Shown one piece after another: positions 1,847-20,108 of a stretch of 20,108 nt of DNA. A program made the position numbers and the translations under genes. The notes under the pieces are model-generated. The model searched no databases. It was given only the letters and a program-made list of their open reading frames with translations, and had not been told where the DNA came from. The first letter of the stretch is position 1; each line of letters opens with the position of its first letter. Source of the DNA: a virus; IMG/VR virus record IMGVR_UViG_3300020442_000314, positions 1 to 20,108 of that record. The stretch is one strand, 5' to 3'.

Positions 1847-2584
1847 ATGGAGAAGATAGAATCCCTTAAAGGGAAAACCATAGCTATAGTCGGCATGGGT
1901 AGAAGTTGGCACGATTACAATCTAGCTAAATCACACGGCATACACTTTGATGAAGTTTGGGCTATAAATTCTGTTGCAAGTGTAATTTTTCACGATAGAG
2001 TATTTATGATGGATCCTCCGTCAAGATTTTTGGATAGTGATGATGCTGGTGGACAAACTGAAACCATGCGAAAACTTTTGCAAAAACATGACAAACCAAT
2101 CTATTCTTGTGTTACTGATGAAAGATGTCCTCCCGTAGTAGAATATCCGATACATCAAATTGTAAGAGATTCTCATTGTTATTATTTAAATAATACAGTT
2201 GCTTATGCAATAGCTTTTGCTTATTGGCATGAAGTAAGTAATTTAAAAATGTTTGGTATTGATTTTAGTTATAAAGGCAATTTACATTTTGCAGAAGCGG
2301 GTAGAGGATGTTGCGAGTTTTGGTTAAATAAATGTATGCACAAAGATATACAAGTTGAAGTAGCCAATAGTTCTGCTTTATTAGATTCAAATGAAGATGC
2401 ACAAGATAAATTGTATGGCTATCATAGATTAAAAGATCCTATGGTAGTTGTACTAGATGAAGAAAAAAAATTAAGAGTTTTAAAAAAAAGCGAATACGAA
2501 TCTTCCATAACTAGGCCAGAAAGAACACCAATTATGGTAGATAGAAATGATCCTAATGTTCTTGGAGAACCAAAAAAATGGTAG
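1847..2584 (+). CDS. Rossmann-like enzyme, possible glycosyltransferase (DUF115/MAF or GT42 sialyltransferase-like)
   Basis: A 245-residue protein. The N-terminus has a nucleotide-binding type strand-loop (KTIAIVGMGRSW, residues 10-21), then VWAINSVASV and a strand ending FMMDPP. The second half has NNTVAYAIAFAYWHEVSNLK leading into GIDFSY (137-142) and later ANSSALLD. The series of G-x-G-x-S loop, 'vwaiN' strand, helix with small residues, GIDxxY-like loop and late NS-x-LL resembles CMP-sialic-acid transferases of the Cst-II type and the MAF/DUF115 (MptE-like) group. This resemblance is pattern-based inference. The last 50 residues are charged and look separate. The gene sits between an adaptor and a small helical protein gene and has its own strong ribosome-binding site. 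Modification of virion or host-surface glycans would suit that, but another nucleotide-dependent role is possible. Confidence 0.65.
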   Translation: MEKIESLKGKTIAIVGMGRSWHDYNLAKSHGIHFDEVWAINSVASVIFHDRVFMMDPPSRFLDSDDAGGQTETMRKLLQKHDKPIYSCVTDERCPPVVEYPIHQIVRDSHCYYLNNTVAYAIAFAYWHEVSNLKMFGIDFSYKGNLHFAEAGRGCCEFWLNKCMHKDIQVEVANSSALLDSNEDAQDKLYGYHRLKDPMVVVLDEEKKLRVLKKSEYESSITRPERTPIMVDRNDPNVLGEPKKW

Positions 2585-2886: not shown

Positions 2887-3315
2887 ATGGCTATTACTTC
2901 CACACTAACCTCTAGTTTTAAAAAAGAATTACTTCTTGGTAATCACAATTTTACCAATAGTTCGGGAGATACTTATAAACTAGCTTTATACACGAGTTCC
3001 GCTACATTAGGGGCAACTACCACTTCTTTTACTACAACAGGTCAAGCAAGTGGTACTAACTACACATCTGGTGGTGGTACTTTAACCAATGTAACTCCAA
3101 CTATAAGTGGCACAACTGCTATAACTGATTTTGCAGATTTAACATTTAGTACAGCAACGATTACAGCCAGAGGTTGTATGATCTATAACAGTTCTGACTC
3201 TAATAAATCAGTAGCTACTATAGATTTTGGCGGAGATAAAACTTCTACTGCTGGAGACTTCACTATAGTTTTTCCCGCAGCTGGAGCAAGCACAGCTATT
3301 ATAAGAATAGCGTAG
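2887..3315 (+). CDS. Ser/Thr/Gly-rich small virion protein (tail or decoration type)
   Basis: A 142-residue protein made of short beta strands with extreme Thr/Ser/Gly content, and only one Cys (CMIYNSSD). The N-terminal block (SSFKKELLLGNHNF followed by DTYKLALYTSSATLG) matches a recurrent marine-phage virion protein pattern that I recall but cannot name as a formal family. It ends with a hydrophobic strand pair (TIVFPAAGASTAIIRIA). It opens the fibre gene cluster: 15 bases after the helical protein, with a weak AAAGG ribosome-binding site, and 9 bases before the S74 fibre. Its composition and position suggest a surface-exposed tail or capsid component, perhaps receptor-facing. The exact role is unknown. 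Confidence 0.75.
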   Translation: MAITSTLTSSFKKELLLGNHNFTNSSGDTYKLALYTSSATLGATTTSFTTTGQASGTNYTSGGGTLTNVTPTISGTTAITDFADLTFSTATITARGCMIYNSSDSNKSVATIDFGGDKTSTAGDFTIVFPAAGASTAIIRIA

Positions 3316-3324: not shown

Positions 3325-4797
3325 ATGGCTCTTGTCCTAAATGATAGGGTAAAAGAACTTACCACTTCTACTGGCACAGGCACCATAAATTTAGCAGGTG
3401 CTGAAACTGGTTTTGTAACTTTTGTAGCAGGTATTGGTAACACCAACACTACTTACTATGCGATAGTACATCAATCAGCTAATGAGTTTGAAGTAGGTTT
3501 AGGCACAGTTTCGGACGCTAGTCCAGATACTTTAAGCAGAACCACAATCATCAGTAGTTCTAATTCTGGCTCCGCAGTTAATTTTTCCGCAGGAACTAAA
3601 GATGTATTTTGTACTTTACCTGCAAGTAAAGCTGTATTTGCAGATGCTTCTGATAATGTTGGTATTGGTTTAACAAATCCTAGTAAAAAGTTTCATGTAA
3701 AAGGAGATGAAATTTTACTCGAAGACCCTCAGGGCGGATATAAATTAGAGTTAAATGCTGATACAAATCCTGTCACAATAACTGCAAATGATAATACTGG
3801 TGCAAATTATTGTGGATTTAGATTAAAAACGAATAATGGTGGTGGTAATCCAGTCACTGCAATGCATGTTTTTCCAAGCGGAGGTGCTTTTGTAGGTTTT
3901 GGTACAGACGCACGAAATGATACACAAATGGTTATATCTAAATCACCTACCAGTGCTACACAGACAACACCAGAAACATTATTAGTTCTTTCAAATCCTT
4001 GTTTATCTACAGGATCTGATATTAAAGTTGGACAAGGGCCACGAATCGTATTTGAAATTCCAGATGACCAAACTGGAAATAAAGCAACAGGTGCAGCAAT
4101 TGCAGCATTAAAAGAAGTTGATAGTGATACTAATTCACAAACAAGTTTAGCTTTCTACACATCTGATGACGATGAAACCTTAGACCAAAATATGACTATT
4201 CTTTCCGATGGAAAAGTTGGTATAGGCACTTCAAGTCCAACCGAAAAACTAACTGTAAATGGAAATATAGCGAACACTGCTGGTGATTTAACAATTGATT
4301 CTGCTGGCGACATTATTCTTGATGCTGATGGTGGTAATGTAACATTTAAAGATGGTGGTACTGCTATAGGAGATTTAGTAAATGAATCTTCTGATTTTGT
4401 CATAGAATCTAAAGTACAAGATAAAGACATAATTTTTAAAGGTGATGATGGTGGTAGCACAATAACTGCCCTTACTCTTGACATGTCTGAGGCAGGTGCT
4501 GCAACTTTTAACGATAATGTTACAGCTTTCTCAGATGAAAGACTGAAAGATAATATTGAAACTATAGAAAATGGTTTAGATAAAGTAGAACAACTTAGAG
4601 GTGTGACTTACACCAGAGATGAAAAAGAAAGCATAGGGGTTATTGCTCAAGAAGTAGAAAAGATTCTACCAGAAATTGTATTAACTGCTGATGATGAAAT
4701 GGGTACTAAGTCTGTTGATTACAGCAGACTAACCGCAGTATTGATCGAAGCTGTAAAAGATTTATCAGCTAGAGTAAAAGAATTGGAAGGTAAATAA
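3325..4797 (+). CDS. tail fibre/spike with C-terminal peptidase S74 self-cleaving chaperone
   Basis: A 490-residue protein. Residues 1-108 form a compact N-terminal domain common in marine phage fibres (MALVLNDRVKELTTSTGTG, later NFSAGTKDVFCTLPASKAVF), likely the virion attachment part. A beta-rich shaft follows, including 'VGIGLTNPSKKFHVKG' and 'VGIGTSSPTEKLTVNG' strands, and a Gly/Asp repeat region (about 314-400: GDLTIDSAGDIILDADGG, then KDIIFKGDDGGST). Residues 403-490 are an intramolecular chaperone of the S74/endosialidase type, starting SDERLKDNIE. Ser403 and Lys408 match the Ser-Asp-x-x-x-Lys self-cleavage site, where the chain is cut before the Ser after trimer folding. It ends in a leucine-rich helix (AVKDLSARVKELEGK). 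Its stop overlaps the next start by one base. The receptor is unknown. Confidence 0.9.
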   Translation: MALVLNDRVKELTTSTGTGTINLAGAETGFVTFVAGIGNTNTTYYAIVHQSANEFEVGLGTVSDASPDTLSRTTIISSSNSGSAVNFSAGTKDVFCTLPASKAVFADASDNVGIGLTNPSKKFHVKGDEILLEDPQGGYKLELNADTNPVTITANDNTGANYCGFRLKTNNGGGNPVTAMHVFPSGGAFVGFGTDARNDTQMVISKSPTSATQTTPETLLVLSNPCLSTGSDIKVGQGPRIVFEIPDDQTGNKATGAAIAALKEVDSDTNSQTSLAFYTSDDDETLDQNMTILSDGKVGIGTSSPTEKLTVNGNIANTAGDLTIDSAGDIILDADGGNVTFKDGGTAIGDLVNESSDFVIESKVQDKDIIFKGDDGGSTITALTLDMSEAGAATFNDNVTAFSDERLKDNIETIENGLDKVEQLRGVTYTRDEKESIGVIAQEVEKILPEIVLTADDEMGTKSVDYSRLTAVLIEAVKDLSARVKELEGK

Positions 4798-5816: not shown

Positions 5817-6860
5817 ATGAGTGAAATAAAACTAAAAAAAGAATCTATGGAAAGCGAGCTTCCAGGAGTTACGGCAGACATAGATGAAAATAATGTGCCT
5901 TTTAATAGATTAACTTTTAGCGTCAAGCACCCAATTAACAAAGGCATACAATATTGGGAACTAAATAAGGATGATAGTAAAAGTTTACTTACAGAAAAAG
6001 AAGATGGCGTGTATGGAGAAGAAGAAGATGTAGATTATTTAAAAGATAATTGGTGTGTTGAAGAATATGTAGCAGGTTTGAGTTTGGCATGGAGAGTTGC
6101 AGAAAAAGATGTTGATATTCCTGATGAATGGTGGGAAGAAGTAAACATTGTTCCTCAAAGAACTGCTATGTACGATGATGTTTTTGTAAATCAAGAAATT
6201 GTAAAAAAAGATTATGCAGTTGGTTGTACTGGAAAATTAAAAACAGAGTACGATGAATTGATAAATAAGATAAAAGAAAAGTTTCCAAATGAATATGATT
6301 TTTATAGCAACAAAAACAATATTATTGGCAAGTACCATGACAACCACACTATAAGACCGCCATATAAATCACAAAATACTATTACTGTTTATCACATGTA
6401 TTATCCAAAGTCTTGGATGCAAAAACTTTTAAAAGATTATCAGTGTCCAAATTTTGATTATAAATATTGTTTTTGGTTTGGTTTTAAATACGATTTAGAT
6501 TTAGGCAAAAGATATTTAAAATTGGTAATTAGAGATGACGATAAGACAAGCAATTATCAAGAACACCCAGATTCTTTTATTCCAAGACCACAATTACCAG
6601 TTTGTAATGAACCTTACTTTGCAAAAATATATTCAGAAGATGGCACAGAAGCAGATGAATATGATGTCTTTTTTTCAACTACGCCAGAAATAATGAAAGC
6701 ATACTGCGCAAAAAATGAATTAAATTTTCCTATTCCAGAAAGCAGGGAAGATGACTATATTTGGACTTATGGATTAGTTTATGACAAAAACACTCTTAAA
6801 ATAAAACAAGTAAAAGGCTATATTAAAGTAGCACAAAACATAGATGATTGGTTATGGTAG
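5817..6860 (+). CDS. unrecognised 347-residue aromatic, acidic protein in the fibre cluster
   Basis: No family is recognised. The protein is rich in Trp (about ten), Tyr, Phe, Asp, Glu and Lys, quite unlike the Ser/Thr/Gly-rich fibres on both sides. Features include NKGIQYWELNKDD, EWWEEVNIVPQR, a helical TEYDELINKIKEKFPNEYDF, then FWFGFKYDLDLGKRYLKLVI, and near the end TYGLVYDKNTLKIKQVKGYI and IDDWLW. The last two blocks look like related aromatic beta hairpins. There are six scattered Cys, no signal peptide and no membrane span, so a soluble folded domain is likely. The start ATG at 5817 lies four bases after the previous stop, without a clear Shine-Dalgarno. Position suggests a fibre chaperone or a virion or host-interaction protein; this is inference. 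Confidence 0.75.
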   Translation: MSEIKLKKESMESELPGVTADIDENNVPFNRLTFSVKHPINKGIQYWELNKDDSKSLLTEKEDGVYGEEEDVDYLKDNWCVEEYVAGLSLAWRVAEKDVDIPDEWWEEVNIVPQRTAMYDDVFVNQEIVKKDYAVGCTGKLKTEYDELINKIKEKFPNEYDFYSNKNNIIGKYHDNHTIRPPYKSQNTITVYHMYYPKSWMQKLLKDYQCPNFDYKYCFWFGFKYDLDLGKRYLKLVIRDDDKTSNYQEHPDSFIPRPQLPVCNEPYFAKIYSEDGTEADEYDVFFSTTPEIMKAYCAKNELNFPIPESREDDYIWTYGLVYDKNTLKIKQVKGYIKVAQNIDDWLW

Positions 6861-6955
6861 AGTTAGAAATAAAAAAAGCTAACAAAAAATTTTATAAAAA
6901 ATTAGAAAAAGAAAAAGCGTTAAGAAAAGAATTTAAAAAAAAATTTCATAATTAA
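6854..6955 (+). CDS. possible 33-residue lysine-rich small protein
   Basis: An ATG at 6854 overlaps the end of the 347-residue gene by seven bases (ATGGTAG, the same junction as at 2578) and runs to TAA at 6953-6955, two bases before the next start. The product has 12 Lys and 1 Arg in 33 residues, with a helix-friendly pattern (VELEIKKANKKFYKKLEKEK). It fills an otherwise empty 97-base gap in a genome whose other gaps are 37 bases or less, which supports its being real. However, A-rich DNA makes Lys-rich open frames by chance. It could be a tiny helical assembly factor, a leader or nothing. Confidence 0.4.
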   Translation: MVELEIKKANKKFYKKLEKEKALRKEFKKKFHN

Positions 6956-6957
6956 TC

Positions 6958-7923
6958 ATGCTTGGTTTTAGTGCGATCTCAGAAACTCCAATATCTTCAT
7001 TAGTAAAAGATGAAGGTTCTATCAGTGTTATTCTTACTGGTCAATCAGGAACAACTTCTGTAGGTTCTTTAACCTTTGTAGGAAAAGCCAATGTAACTCT
7101 TGGATCTCAATTAGGAACCTCTGCCCTTGGCTCAACTACTGTAGACGCAGAAGCTAATGCAATAGTAACTGGCTTAACAAGCACTAGTTCTTTAGGAAGT
7201 ATTGTTACAGATTCTGAGGCTAACGTTACTCCAGCGGGACAAGCAGGAACAGGAGCAATATCAGGTGTTGGTGTTAATGCTAGCGCTATAGCTGTTTTAC
7301 CTACTTTATTAGGAAATGTAGGTTCTGTTAGTGTTAGCATAAATGCAGCGGCCAATGTTTCTATTCCAGCTGCAGATGAGGCGGATGGTGAATTAGGGAC
7401 TTTAACAATTCAAGCTGAAGCAAAAGTTAGCCCAACAACTCAATTAGCAACAAGCGCTTTAGGCACTGTTACGATAGAAGCAAAAGCCAATGTAAACACC
7501 ACTGGTCAAACTGGCATATCTGCTTTAGGAACTGTTCTGCAAAATGCAGCAGCCAATGTAACGTTAACTGGTCAAGTTGGTACCGTAGTTTTAGGCACAA
7601 TAACTCAAAAATCTTCAAACCGTGTAAATGTTAACGGATTAAGTTCTACCACAAACATTGGTACGCTCACTTTTATAGGTAAGGCAAATGTAACTCCTAA
7701 CGGCCAGGTCGGTACTTCTGGAGAATTTCAAGTATTAGTTTGGGGAGAAGTAGATGAAAGTCAAAATTCTAATTTTGGTCAAATCTCTACTACACAAACA
7801 CCTAGTTATTCAAATATAAACAACGATCAAGAATCAAGCTTTAGCGAAATAACAGATACACAAACATCAAACTTTAGCGAAATAACAAATACACAATCTC
7901 CAGACTGGGAAGATGTGGCTTAA
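6958..7923 (+). CDS. repeat-built tail fibre protein (22-residue repeats plus 11-residue aromatic repeats)
   Basis: A 321-residue protein built almost wholly of repeats. After a 23-residue head (MLGFSAISETPISSL, then VKDEGSIS), ten units of 22 residues (one of 23) run from 24 to 244, consensus like V-x-x-x-G-Q-x-G-T-x-x-L-G-T-x-T-x-x-A-x-A-N. A degenerate eleventh follows (245-264). From Trp262 six units of exactly 11 residues begin at W262, F273, Y284, F295, F306 and W317, each with Val/Ile at position 4 and Gln at position 8 in the first five. No Cys is present. The composition fits a slender beta-structured fibre. Similar 'ANVxxTGQxG' repeats ending in a WxxV tail occur in cyanophage tail proteins (recollection). 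Head module could dock to the tail; binding target unknown. Confidence 0.75.
   Translation: MLGFSAISETPISSLVKDEGSISVILTGQSGTTSVGSLTFVGKANVTLGSQLGTSALGSTTVDAEANAIVTGLTSTSSLGSIVTDSEANVTPAGQAGTGAISGVGVNASAIAVLPTLLGNVGSVSVSINAAANVSIPAADEADGELGTLTIQAEAKVSPTTQLATSALGTVTIEAKANVNTTGQTGISALGTVLQNAAANVTLTGQVGTVVLGTITQKSSNRVNVNGLSSTTNIGTLTFIGKANVTPNGQVGTSGEFQVLVWGEVDESQNSNFGQISTTQTPSYSNINNDQESSFSEITDTQTSNFSEITNTQSPDWEDVA
7027..7749 (+). repeat. 66-base tandem coding repeat (22-residue units, about 11 copies)
   Basis: Ten full units and one degraded unit encode the V...GQxGTxxLGTxTxxAxAN consensus. Boundaries fall at the Val after each 'AN' or 'AK'. The sixth unit carries one extra residue (it includes ADEADGE). 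Units differ considerably in base sequence, so the expansion is old or under diversifying drift. Units 1 and 10 share near-identical ends (TFVGKANVT and TFIGKANVT). Confidence 0.85.
7741..7920 (+). repeat. 33-base tandem coding repeat (11-residue aromatic units, six copies)
   Basis: Aromatic residues recur at exactly 11-residue spacing from W262 to W317 in the fibre at 6958. Two neighbouring units (7840-7872 and 7873-7905) are identical at 24 of their first 25 bases (both begin tttagcgaaataaca), showing a recent duplication. The last unit is cut short at WEDVA followed by the stop. Confidence 0.85.
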
Positions 7924-16806: not shown

Positions 16807-19800
16807 ATGCCAACTTATAATGTAAATGTAACCGACACAGAATCTTTACAAATCGAAGCTGAATCTCCTGATGAAGCAAGAGCTAAAGTAAAAGCAATAA
16901 TTGCAGAAAGAACTTTAGCCCCACAAGCAGATAATATATTTTTCAATTACGATAGCGGAGTCAAAGACGCAAAGTTTAGATTTGATTTAGGACTTGCAGA
17001 AAACGAAGTAGAAAGAGAAAAAATACTTAGTAAGTATGTAGGTAATGAATACGCAGTTGACTCTTCAGGACAGTTAGCTTTGACACCAGAAGGCATGAAA
17101 ATGTTAGGTCTTGCAGATCAAGTCAGGACTATAAAGTTAAAAAATGGCCAGGAACTAGAACAAAATACCATTATAGATGAAAGGACTTTTGGTTTTAACA
17201 GGTACGATCTTGCAGATTTTTCAGGCGTAGTAGGCCCTATATTTGGTAGTGTAATAGCTTTAGTTCCTCAGTTAAGAGTAGCCAAAGCCTTAGCAAATCT
17301 TTTAGGTGGCAGACCTGCTTTGTCTAATATGTTGCTTTCAGGATTGGGTGGAGCTGCGGGTAAAGGTGTTGAGGAGGCTTATGAAATTAATAAAGGCTAT
17401 CAAGCACAAACTAGAGATGAGCTAAGAAATCTTTTAGCTTATGAAGGTGGCTTGGGCTTTGCTGGGCAAGGGCTTGGTGAAGGTCTTTTTAAATTTTATT
17501 CTTTACTGTTAGGCAAACAAGCTCCTTTTGACAATTTAAGATTTCAACAACAAGCCATAAAAGGTAGATCTATTTTAGATATTATGAAACTAGATGAATC
17601 TTTAGGTAGAGAAGCCACAGAAAGAGAAATTAAAAAAGCTGTACTAGAGGGTAAAATAGGTAAAAATGAGTTCAAAGCTTTACCATCACAATCTGCACTA
17701 AACAGAGTTATTGCTGGTAGATTACAAGCTGTTTCAGAAACAGTTCTTGGTAATAAAAGAGTCCTAAGTACCAAAGCTTATCTAAGAGAAGAAATAGACA
17801 GATTAAACAGACTTATTAACGGAGAAAACTTTGCTGGTGAAGAATTTGTTAAAGAATCTACTAGAGAACAAATTACAGGAGCTTTAAGTGCCGCAAGACA
17901 AAAATTAAATTCAGCAGAAATTAAAACCAACAAACAAGTAAACAAGCTTGTACAAGAACTTATGGAAGGTATAACTTCTGCTGATGATTTTGGTAGTGCT
18001 CTAAATAGAAAACAAATTGGAGAAATTTTGATAGACAGCCTTTCGGAATCACACAAAGCAGTAGAAGATCAGTTAAAGAAAAAATACATTAATGTTGATA
18101 AGATGCTTCTTGCCGTAGGAAAAGACGATCCTGAATTGCTTGAAGGTATAGCAAGATCTATAAACGAACATATTTCCGAACATATAGGAAAAATAGCACA
18201 AGCTTACGGTAAAAAATACGGAAGAAATCCCGCAGAGCAAACAATTAAAGCACCAAGAGAAGTTGATGATCATACTTCAGACGAAGTAACAAATATTGTA
18301 GAGGGCTTGATATTAAGAAAAAGAAGGATAGATGCAGCTTTAGCTAATGAAGAAGGTTTTTTAAAATATTGGGAAGATTTAGATCCAAGAGATTTAAATC
18401 CAAAATTTCCTGAAATAGGTAGAGCACAAAAAGAACAACTTAAATTTGGTGAAAACTTACAAAGAATTAGAAACGATATATCTAGTTTCAAAGCTCAAAG
18501 ATTGAATAGCTTAAATGTCGGAAGAAATACTTCTTTATTAGACGACATCATTAAGATATTAGATAACCCAGAAGATGCTATTCATAATCCTGGCTTATTA
18601 AATATTTTAGAAAATCCAAATAGTTTAGTTAAGATGTTTACCAAAAAAGGAGAGGTAAAAGGCTACATAAATAAAAGATTAGATAAAACCGCATCTAGAG
18701 AAATTGCTAAAGCAGTAGAAGAATTGAGGTTAGCAAATAAGTTAGCAAGAGAAAGACTAGCTCCTTATGATTCTTTAAAAATAAAACAAATAATTGGTGA
18801 GTCGCAACAAGGTAATTACAACATCAATAGCGTTTATGATGAATTTATATTATCAGGATCTAAAGATACAAAACCTTTTGAAGATTTTTTTAAAGCTATA
18901 AGAGATCATGAAGATTATTTGAGAAAAACTTACGGAAACGATCCAAAACTTCTAGCACAAAAACTTGAAAAATTTGGCGGAGAGCAATACATAAAAACAC
19001 AATTACAAAGAAAGGTTTTACATGACGCTTGGCGTGAGTCTTACGACAAAACAAGTAAGTCTTTAGATTTTAAAAAGTTTGCAGATGAAATATTAAAATT
19101 TGATAGAACAAAAGAAGGGAAAATGGAAATTATTTTTGGGCCTAACTATAAAAATATTTTGGATACAGTTACTCAATTAAGAAGAATAACTCCAAGCATG
19201 TATAACAAACAACCATTAGAGTTAGAAAAATTAATTAACGATATTGTAGAGACTGATGGCGGACTTAGAGATACTTCTACTGCACAAAGATTTTTGGATG
19301 CTTTAAAAAATAAATCTATCGCTGCAAAAGAAAGAATTGCTTTTGAGCAAAATTCTATTATCAAAAGATTAGATGTTTCAGGAACTGACGAGATTGCAGA
19401 TGTAGTATTCAAACCAAATAGTGCTGCTAACATTCAGATAGTTAAAGATACTGTAGATCCAGAAACATTTGTTGAAATACAACAAGCAAGTTTATCTAAA
19501 TTATTAAAAGATACTTTTGATCCATCCAAAGAAAAAATTACAGATATATTTAAACCTGACAGACTCAGAAGAACTTTAGATAGTTATGGAGATTCGACAC
19601 TAGAGGCTATGTTTGGCAAAGAATCATTAATGGGTTTCAGAGCATTACAAAGAGCTTTAGATGGTTTAACCATAGAAAAGTCAGCAGGTACTCTTGTAGC
19701 TGCGGGTATTGCAGTAAACGCTTTAAGCATAGGCATGTTGCCAACTGTTGCAGGATTAGCACTTATGAGACAAGCTTTTTCAAGTCCTAGAATTTTAAAT

Positions 19801-20108
19801 ATATTAGCCAGTAAAGATCCTAAAGCTATTGGGAGAGTAGTACAGTTCTTTATTAGGACTGCTAGACAACTTGGCATAAGATTAGTTGGTGATGCAGTTT
19901 CAGAAGGAAGAGCACAAGCAGAACGTGGTATCGAAAGAGGTCAAGAAGAGTTGCAGGATATGCGAAACCAAAATCCAGATGTTAAATCTTTTGAAGAATC
20001 TTTGAGAAATTTAAGAGAACAAAGTCAAAGAGATATAAGAAACTTACAATCAAGCACTCCTTTACCTGAAGTTGAGCCTGTTAATTTAGATCCACTTTCT
20101 CCTGAAAG
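16807..20108 (+). CDS. giant ejection/internal virion protein (3' partial, at least 1100 residues)
   Basis: From ATG 16807 the frame stays open for 1100 codons to the window edge, so the C-terminus is missing. The N-terminus (MPTYNVNVTDTESLQIEAES, PDEARAKVKAI) is a small beta-alpha domain, followed by AKFRFDLGLAENE. Hydrophobic segments occur at about 139-156 (SGVVGPIFGSVIALVPQ), around 175-235 (Gly-rich) and at 960-987 (AGTLVAAGIAVNALSIG, then MLPTVAGLALM). Between them lie some 700 residues of charged helix. After 987 a polar helical tail starts (RGIERGQEELQDMRNQ). Length and mixed soluble/membrane layout match the largest ejection proteins, such as T7 gp16, though no transglycosylase motif is seen in the visible part. 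The start lies five bases after the previous stop. Confidence 0.85.
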   Translation, partial: MPTYNVNVTDTESLQIEAESPDEARAKVKAIIAERTLAPQADNIFFNYDSGVKDAKFRFDLGLAENEVEREKILSKYVGNEYAVDSSGQLALTPEGMKMLGLADQVRTIKLKNGQELEQNTIIDERTFGFNRYDLADFSGVVGPIFGSVIALVPQLRVAKALANLLGGRPALSNMLLSGLGGAAGKGVEEAYEINKGYQAQTRDELRNLLAYEGGLGFAGQGLGEGLFKFYSLLLGKQAPFDNLRFQQQAIKGRSILDIMKLDESLGREATEREIKKAVLEGKIGKNEFKALPSQSALNRVIAGRLQAVSETVLGNKRVLSTKAYLREEIDRLNRLINGENFAGEEFVKESTREQITGALSAARQKLNSAEIKTNKQVNKLVQELMEGITSADDFGSALNRKQIGEILIDSLSESHKAVEDQLKKKYINVDKMLLAVGKDDPELLEGIARSINEHISEHIGKIAQAYGKKYGRNPAEQTIKAPREVDDHTSDEVTNIVEGLILRKRRIDAALANEEGFLKYWEDLDPRDLNPKFPEIGRAQKEQLKFGENLQRIRNDISSFKAQRLNSLNVGRNTSLLDDIIKILDNPEDAIHNPGLLNILENPNSLVKMFTKKGEVKGYINKRLDKTASREIAKAVEELRLANKLARERLAPYDSLKIKQIIGESQQGNYNINSVYDEFILSGSKDTKPFEDFFKAIRDHEDYLRKTYGNDPKLLAQKLEKFGGEQYIKTQLQRKVLHDAWRESYDKTSKSLDFKKFADEILKFDRTKEGKMEIIFGPNYKNILDTVTQLRRITPSMYNKQPLELEKLINDIVETDGGLRDTSTAQRFLDALKNKSIAAKERIAFEQNSIIKRLDVSGTDEIADVVFKPNSAANIQIVKDTVDPETFVEIQQASLSKLLKDTFDPSKEKITDIFKPDRLRRTLDSYGDSTLEAMFGKESLMGFRALQRALDGLTIEKSAGTLVAAGIAVNALSIGMLPTVAGLALMRQAFSSPRILNILASKDPKAIGRVVQFFIRTARQLGIRLVGDAVSEGRAQAERGIERGQEELQDMRNQNPDVKSFEESLRNLREQSQRDIRNLQSSTPLPEVEPVNLDPLSPE

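Follow-up and report, generated by a model that had tools for sequence, protein, structure and literature searches.

We find that the gene at positions 1847–2584 of a viral DNA stretch of 20,108 nucleotides (IMG/VR record IMGVR_UViG_3300020442_000314, positions 1 to 20,108; hereafter the window) encodes a member of a new protein family inside a known superfamily. In its predicted model, the protein is a Rossmann-type domain of the superfamily that holds MptE, Maf (PF01973), GT42, and thiamine pyrophosphokinase (TPK), and the strongest inference for this predicted protein is a nucleotide-binding pocket. We tentatively favor a nucleotide-binding transferase that would transfer a sugar to a virion protein encoded in the same operon, a reading that falls somewhat short of probable. 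Membership of GT42 or Maf is not shown, since the fold is shared with diphosphokinases and a regulator, and His188, Arg129, and Asn51 of Cst-II seemingly have no counterparts.

Results

A Conserved Gene in the Head-Tail Joining Operon

The ORF (plus strand, ATG start, 245 aa) is preceded by an AGGAGG ribosome-binding site at 1837–1842, 4 nt ahead of its ATG. Three sites in the window (1837, 3314, and 17372) have an AGGAGG followed at 3–10 nt by an ATG, against 0.67 expected, and at least three such sites arise in 3 of 100 shuffles. Two of them lie ahead of listed genes (1847–2584 and 3325–4797) and the third is inside the ORF 16807–20106, which bears out the initial annotation in counting this site as one of only two perfect ribosome-binding sites. 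In five pairs formed with relatives, dN/dS is 0.03–0.16 (dS exceeds 1 in two), and the protein is thus under purifying selection. These low values and the relatives found in IMG/VR establish the ORF as a real conserved gene rather than a chance ORF.

Upstream, on the same strand, lie a first SU10-type adaptor (adaptor1, 139–810; PF24175, E 7e-14), a small four-cysteine protein matching phrog_28581 in PHROGs (810–1127; unknown function), and, directly 5′ of the gene, a second SU10-type head-to-tail adaptor (adaptor2, 1162–1836; PF24175 SU10_adaptor, E 1.1e-23). Downstream, also on the plus strand, the ORF list places a 97-aa helical protein (2578–2871), which overlaps the gene by 7 nt, and PHROGs matching identifies a Ser/Thr-rich phrog_644 protein (2887–3315). 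The gene does therefore sit between an adaptor gene and a small helical protein, as first described. At 2575–2584, the codons of the C-terminal KKW contain the start codon of the next gene, which may explain why KKW is retained; in some relatives the C-terminus is KRY. Farther downstream, the C-terminal part of the 3325–4797 protein matches many tail-fibre PHROGs, and we take it to be perhaps an intramolecular chaperone domain.

Genomic context was surveyed in 245 loci carrying the gene, some of their contigs having been fetched twice. Adaptor2 lies directly 5′ of the homologue in 235 of 239 loci (the exceptions are L033, L314, L320, and L336), and the helical gene lies directly 3′ in all 213 loci with enough downstream sequence. 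Measured to the in-frame ATG nearest the stop, which biases the values toward small gaps, the distance to the helical gene is −7 nt in 119 of 224 loci, −1 in 60, −4 in 5, 0 in 3, +1 in 25, and 127 to 249 nt in 12, such that the helical ATG overlaps the stop of the homologue or lies within 1 nt of it in 212 of the 224. A small extra ORF occupies the gap in the three wide-gap loci examined; this ORF is conserved (L013 ~3671–3902, L014 ~6736–6967, and L118 ~3730–3981), and its start seemingly overlaps the stop of the homologue.

Across 127 loci, distances within the family correlate with those of adaptor2 (r 0.90), adaptor1 (0.84), the helical protein (0.77), and the phrog_644 protein (0.61). Family distances thus track those of the operon neighbors, which indicates that the gene is inherited with the operon. 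Since adaptor1 and adaptor2 are equally correlated with each other (0.91), the value for adaptor2 proves no contact. We rejected the Ser/Thr content of the neighbors as evidence for modification: the median Ser+Thr fraction is 0.305 with the gene and 0.308 without it for the phrog_644 protein, 0.113 and 0.116 for the helical protein, and 0.180 versus 0.159 for adaptor2, where the difference (p 1.3e-10, uncorrected for ancestry) may reflect ancestry alone.

Presence and Absence in Related Phages

Related phages with nothing in this slot mark the 1847–2584 gene as an accessory gene that was repeatedly gained or lost. The cultured phages closest to the cassette are of this kind: in DSL-LC04, the slot lacks the gene and the adaptor is followed by a helical protein; in HTVC027P and CRP-901, it also lacks the gene and the adaptor is followed by a phrog_644-like protein. 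In HTVC023P and 023Pt_psg01, a 447-nt gene follows the adaptor. Among cassettes resembling the DSL-LC04 helical protein (the best 80 of 426, which are no population sample), the gene ahead of the helical one is an adaptor in 72 and a homologue of the 1847–2584 gene in 8. Profile searches of whole records found one copy in each of the six records with the gene in the slot and no copy in any of the 17 adaptor-bearing records without it there, although these contigs are possibly fragments. An essential part in head-tail joining was rejected on the strength of these 72 cassettes and 17 records. On the adaptor2 tree, which has 91 rows (loci thinned to below 85% identity, the window, and four isolates), presence changes six times; at least four changes are forced by well-supported branches, and the long branches (L218 and CRP-901) are unsure.

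The phages carrying the gene are common, apparently uncultured, and probably marine, the last judging from nearest isolates that came from seawater (DSL-LC04 is from a lake) and from two MAG titles; the podovirus morphology put forward in the initial annotation is a reading of the genes. Contigs binned in two MAGs, one of Gammaproteobacteria and one of Trichodesmium (L159 and L160), carry the phage cassette, which may reflect the host or mis-binning. One locus, L019:1501–2229, looks recombinant: its adaptor2 (94%) is like that of the window group, as is the N-terminal half of its protein, and the C-terminal half resembles another group. Three records (OQ594354, OL906435, and PP438419) name different hosts, have equal size (65,014) and equal matches, and are possibly one genome. 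The relative G002 has a GroES-like gene in the virion region (L248:5361–5927; Cpn10, 26.7 bits), and annotated GroES genes are also found in isolates HTVC027P and CRP-901; G002 further encodes a C-5 cytosine DNA methylase (L250:1809–3125).

Sequence Relatives of the Family

Scanning IMG/VR with the 1847–2584 protein returned 392 related stretches, and in two scans with alignments at least 597 and at least 594 of the 600 stretches listed encode relatives. The analysis covered the best 80 of each scan. Of 249 matched ORFs, 244 were kept as full length; these represent 186 distinct proteins, some contigs having been fetched twice.

The window protein matched nothing at E up to 1e-3 among 50,697 phage records. 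The divergent member L080 reaches a protein of Microcystis phage Mvi-Yong1342-1 (E 2e-3) and two Lactobacillus phage rows (E 1), and another divergent member, L232, reaches the Microcystis phage only (E 3e-2). In a single comparison with the Microcystis phage protein, the family profile gives an hhalign probability of 94.6% (E 6.5e-8). This phage gene (L158:3683–4486) is annotated as a "type 11 methyltransferase," apparently wrongly: it has no methyltransferase Pfam match and is homologous to the family. Scanning viral contigs with its protein found none, and a plasmid search gave a single row (E 4).

Searches of profile libraries with the window protein and family members gave nothing significant in Pfam (best value 0.018, one member, unrelated model) or NCBIfam (best 0.009, 1 of 62 members, unrelated model), and neither PADLOC nor PDB sequence searches with the family gave anything significant. 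Among PHROGs, matches are likewise below significance; phrog_27076 (unknown function) matches 29 residues of the window protein (E 0.0098) and, weakly, 3 of 19 relatives (best E 0.0031). PF06002 (GT42) is absent from the 13 Pfam families matched at E up to 1 by 62 members, a search in which HMMER filters discard most weak matches, and PF01973 (MptE-like/Maf) appears in 4 of the 62 at non-significant values (best E 0.064). Comparing the family with three Maf-like proteins by hhalign gave a probability of 0.9%. Over the two MAGs, the PF01973 profile found three Maf-like loci in one; the PF06002 profile found none, and its controls were likewise zero, which makes that search uninformative. One Maf-like protein, searched against the PDB, returned noise only. 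We found no literature on the family among the matches listed.

Predicted Fold

With 19 close relatives as input, AlphaFold produced a poor model (pLDDT 69.7). An input of 62 sequences, thinned at 85% identity, raised the pLDDT to 89.0 (86–89 over the five models), with a pTM of 0.81; this second model is weak over the last 25 residues. Its comparison by VIA-align confirms the Rossmann-type architecture recognized in the initial annotation. The top match is MptE (8sd5; Z 11.8, 146 aligned, 2.8 Å), and the same group includes the Maf flagellin glycosyltransferase (5mu5; Z 11.4, 163 aligned, 3.5 Å), SteA (Z 10.6–10.9), GT42 Cst-II (1ro7; Z 9.7, 153 aligned, 3.4 Å), TPK (3lm8; Z 9.7), and GT42 Cst-I (2p2v; Z 9.5), with GT42 chains overall at 8.7–9.7. 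Below this superfamily group (Z 8.7–11.8) come GT29 (6.3–6.8) and then the first other fold (5.6). The poorer model recovers the same set minus Maf (MptE 12.0, TPK 10.0), an absence that means little. Foldseek against PDB chains ranks SteA (E 4.7e-4) and Cst-II (E 6.4e-4) first with low TM-scores (0.35–0.48), and in BFVD it finds an uncultured-phage protein at E 1.2e-11, four of the listed rows being named MptE-like.

Because MptE, SteA, and TPK score like the glycosyltransferases and the scores of the top group lie too close together, the fold leaves the reaction unchosen. The proposed resemblance to GT42 or MAF/DUF115 proteins thus stands for the fold (Z 8.7–11.4) and does not extend to a significant PF06002 or PF01973 sequence match. 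Furthermore, with MptE, SteA, and TPK ranking beside or above glycosyltransferases, the case for a glycosyltransferase as initially put is half countered on structural grounds.

Conserved Residues

The four elements on which the initial annotation drew are present: GMGRSW (residues 16–21), VWAIN (37–41), GIDFSY (137–142), and NSSALL (174–179). We surveyed conservation over the window protein and 61 relatives that are 45–77% identical to it; 36 columns do not vary in any of the 62 sequences. They include G18 and S20 in the loop after strand 1 (residues 16–20; 1892–1906, this and the following on the plus strand), N41 at the end of strand 2 (1967–1969), D56 after strand 3 (2012–2014), R60, N115-N116-T117 at a helix start (2189–2197), and D139 and Y142 of the D139-F-S-Y142 segment after strand 6 (2261–2272), the last two having been singled out earlier as residues whose conservation should be checked. 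Also invariant are E150 in the helix after the D139 loop (2294–2296), E157, S176, and Y190, G191, and H193-R194-L195, which make up five of the six residues of the YGYHRL block (190–195; 2414–2431), Y192 being F once. D56 is followed by P57, also invariant, and then by the near-invariant acidic residues D63 and D66. Invariant residues just after strand ends number 13 of 36, no significant enrichment (p 0.17, a weak test), and 4 of 36 stand before strand starts.

The protein was related to Cst-II by motif alignment, using Cst-II fragments checked in the PDB rather than coordinate superposition. In this alignment, N41 corresponds to Asn31, T117 to Ser132, and D139 to Asp154, and the spacing from T117 to D139 (22) equals that from Ser132 to Asp154. 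D56 stands at the place of Asn51, and Leu114 (L/F/I/M in the family) at that of Arg129. In Cst-II, His188 is the likely base, and Arg129, Asn51, and Tyr81 are acceptor contacts, according to an extract of PMC4202792. No invariant His falls at the position of the His188 lid by motif alignment, H147 being Tyr in 6 of 62, and the stretch from strand 6 to the next helix is ~9 residues in the model, short for a Cst-II-type lid. An Asn after strand 2 is also found, matched by motif, in all three Maf-like cyanobacterial proteins fetched.

MptE and TPK have an Asp at the end of strand 2, and TPK has a D-x-D Mg-binding motif after strand 3. In the window protein, residues 54–60 are MMDPPSR, in which D56 is the sole acidic residue, as compared with the motif itself rather than with an aligned TPK sequence.

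Discussion

Our preferred reading is that of a single-domain transferase made together with the head-tail connector proteins. A nucleotide or nucleotide-sugar would be bound at the G-x-S loop, Asn41, Asp56, the NNT helix start, and the Asp139-Tyr142 loop. With less certainty, the transferred group may be a sugar, perhaps a CMP-carried nonulosonic acid of the kind used by GT42 and Maf, and a virion protein encoded in the same operon may serve as acceptor, the activated sugar presumably coming from the host. In the relative G002, no sugar-nucleotide enzyme appeared among the 10 ORFs run against Pfam, out of 73 ORFs in overlapping pieces, the rest of which were viewed by eye. We infer the sugar and the virion acceptor from the virion operon, from start codons that overlap or touch the stop, and from two precedents. 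Flagellin is glycosylated by Maf, whose PF01973 domain is similar to Cst-II, as stated in a passage of PMC11339370, and mycobacteriophage Che8 has a glycosylated capsid, as cited in part of PMC11256854. Sugar transfer to virion proteins or host glycans, as initially put forward, is possible as one of several readings.

A further possibility, which we consider unlikely, is a virion or assembly factor that binds a nucleotide without catalysis and has put the fold to a use of its own, as may also be the case for SteA. The structural scores of SteA suit such a role, as do the position of the gene beside the adaptor and its evolution in step with it; moreover, the SteA pocket corresponds to the sites at which TPK and Cst-II bind nucleotides, and C. 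glutamicum SteA is stabilized by GDP or UDP, according to an extract of PMC12977500. However, a structural role accords poorly with the 17 related records that have the adaptor family and no copy of the gene, with its patchy presence on the adaptor tree, and with invariant polar residues (D139, E150, E157, H193, and R194) that suggest chemistry. Less probable is a small-molecule diphosphokinase, similar to MptE or TPK, that would carry out ATP-dependent pyrophosphate transfer to pterin, thiamine, or another metabolite. It would explain why MptE is the top structural match with both models, TPK also scoring well, and the acidic D63 and D66 would fit it; but the invariant Asn ends strand 2 as in Cst-II and Maf-like proteins, where MptE and TPK have Asp, no D-x-D was seen directly after strand 3, and a cofactor enzyme would be odd in a head-tail operon.

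The same fold evidence from VIA-align would also accommodate a glycosyltransferase that alters host surface glycans, for example in superinfection exclusion, rather than the virion. We regard this as improbable, given the virion operon, the overlap or contact with a structural-module gene, and the sequence, in which no membrane segment was noticed by eye. That the protein is a nucleotide-dependent transferase of some other kind within the superfamily, with DNA or a small molecule as its target, is an outside prospect too. Here the distant relative in Microcystis phage Mvi-Yong1342-1 is relevant: it lies just upstream of terminase genes, which shows that the head-tail slot is not common to all relatives.

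Comparison with characterized systems places the 1847–2584 protein beside several of them without identity to any. It shares its fold with the central PF01973 domain of Maf and, by motif, the Asn after strand 2 of three Maf-like proteins, and the action of Maf on a structural protein resembles the virion acceptor proposed here; in contrast, Maf has three domains against one, there is no significant sequence match, and no flagellin is present. With GT42 Cst-II and Cst-I, it has in common the fold, a G-x-x-x-S-type loop, and counterparts by motif of Asn31, Ser132, and Asp154, whereas the His188 lid seems to be missing, Arg129 and Asn51 seem to be replaced in the motif alignment, and PF06002 is not significantly matched. 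MptE, the HPPK of Methanocaldococcus jannaschii, offers the best structural score, and 4 of 62 members weakly match PF01973, yet the phage protein has Asn rather than Asp after strand 2 and a phage operon context. SteA and TPK are alike in the fold of the nucleotide-binding domain (Z 9.2–10.9) and differ in having no sequence match, other neighbors, and, for TPK, a D-x-D motif not seen here. Closest in setting are phage-borne proteins of uncultured Caudovirales, uncharacterized or "MptE-like" (BFVD A0A6J5RL04, A0A6J7XC21, and others; Foldseek E 1.2e-11 to 8e-5), although they are at most 22% identical. In Che8, phage-encoded glycosyltransferases are suspected behind the capsid glycans, according to the same part of PMC11256854; the host is different, and the likeness is drawn from the literature at second hand.

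The widest version of the favored reading, in which a new Maf/sialyltransferase-like family of phage glycosyltransferases, built into the head-tail connector operon of this common and probably marine group, attaches a sugar of host origin, perhaps nonulosonic, to a connector or tail protein and virion glycosylation is common in ocean phages, is doubtful. Whatever the reaction, the predicted fold makes function testable in a sequence family with no significant match in Pfam, PHROGs, or NCBIfam. If the particle is glycosylated, a common environmental phage group would build decorated virions, which would affect how the particles adsorb, how stable they are, and how they are recognized; through the sugar, infection would be coupled to the nucleotide-sugar pools of the host.
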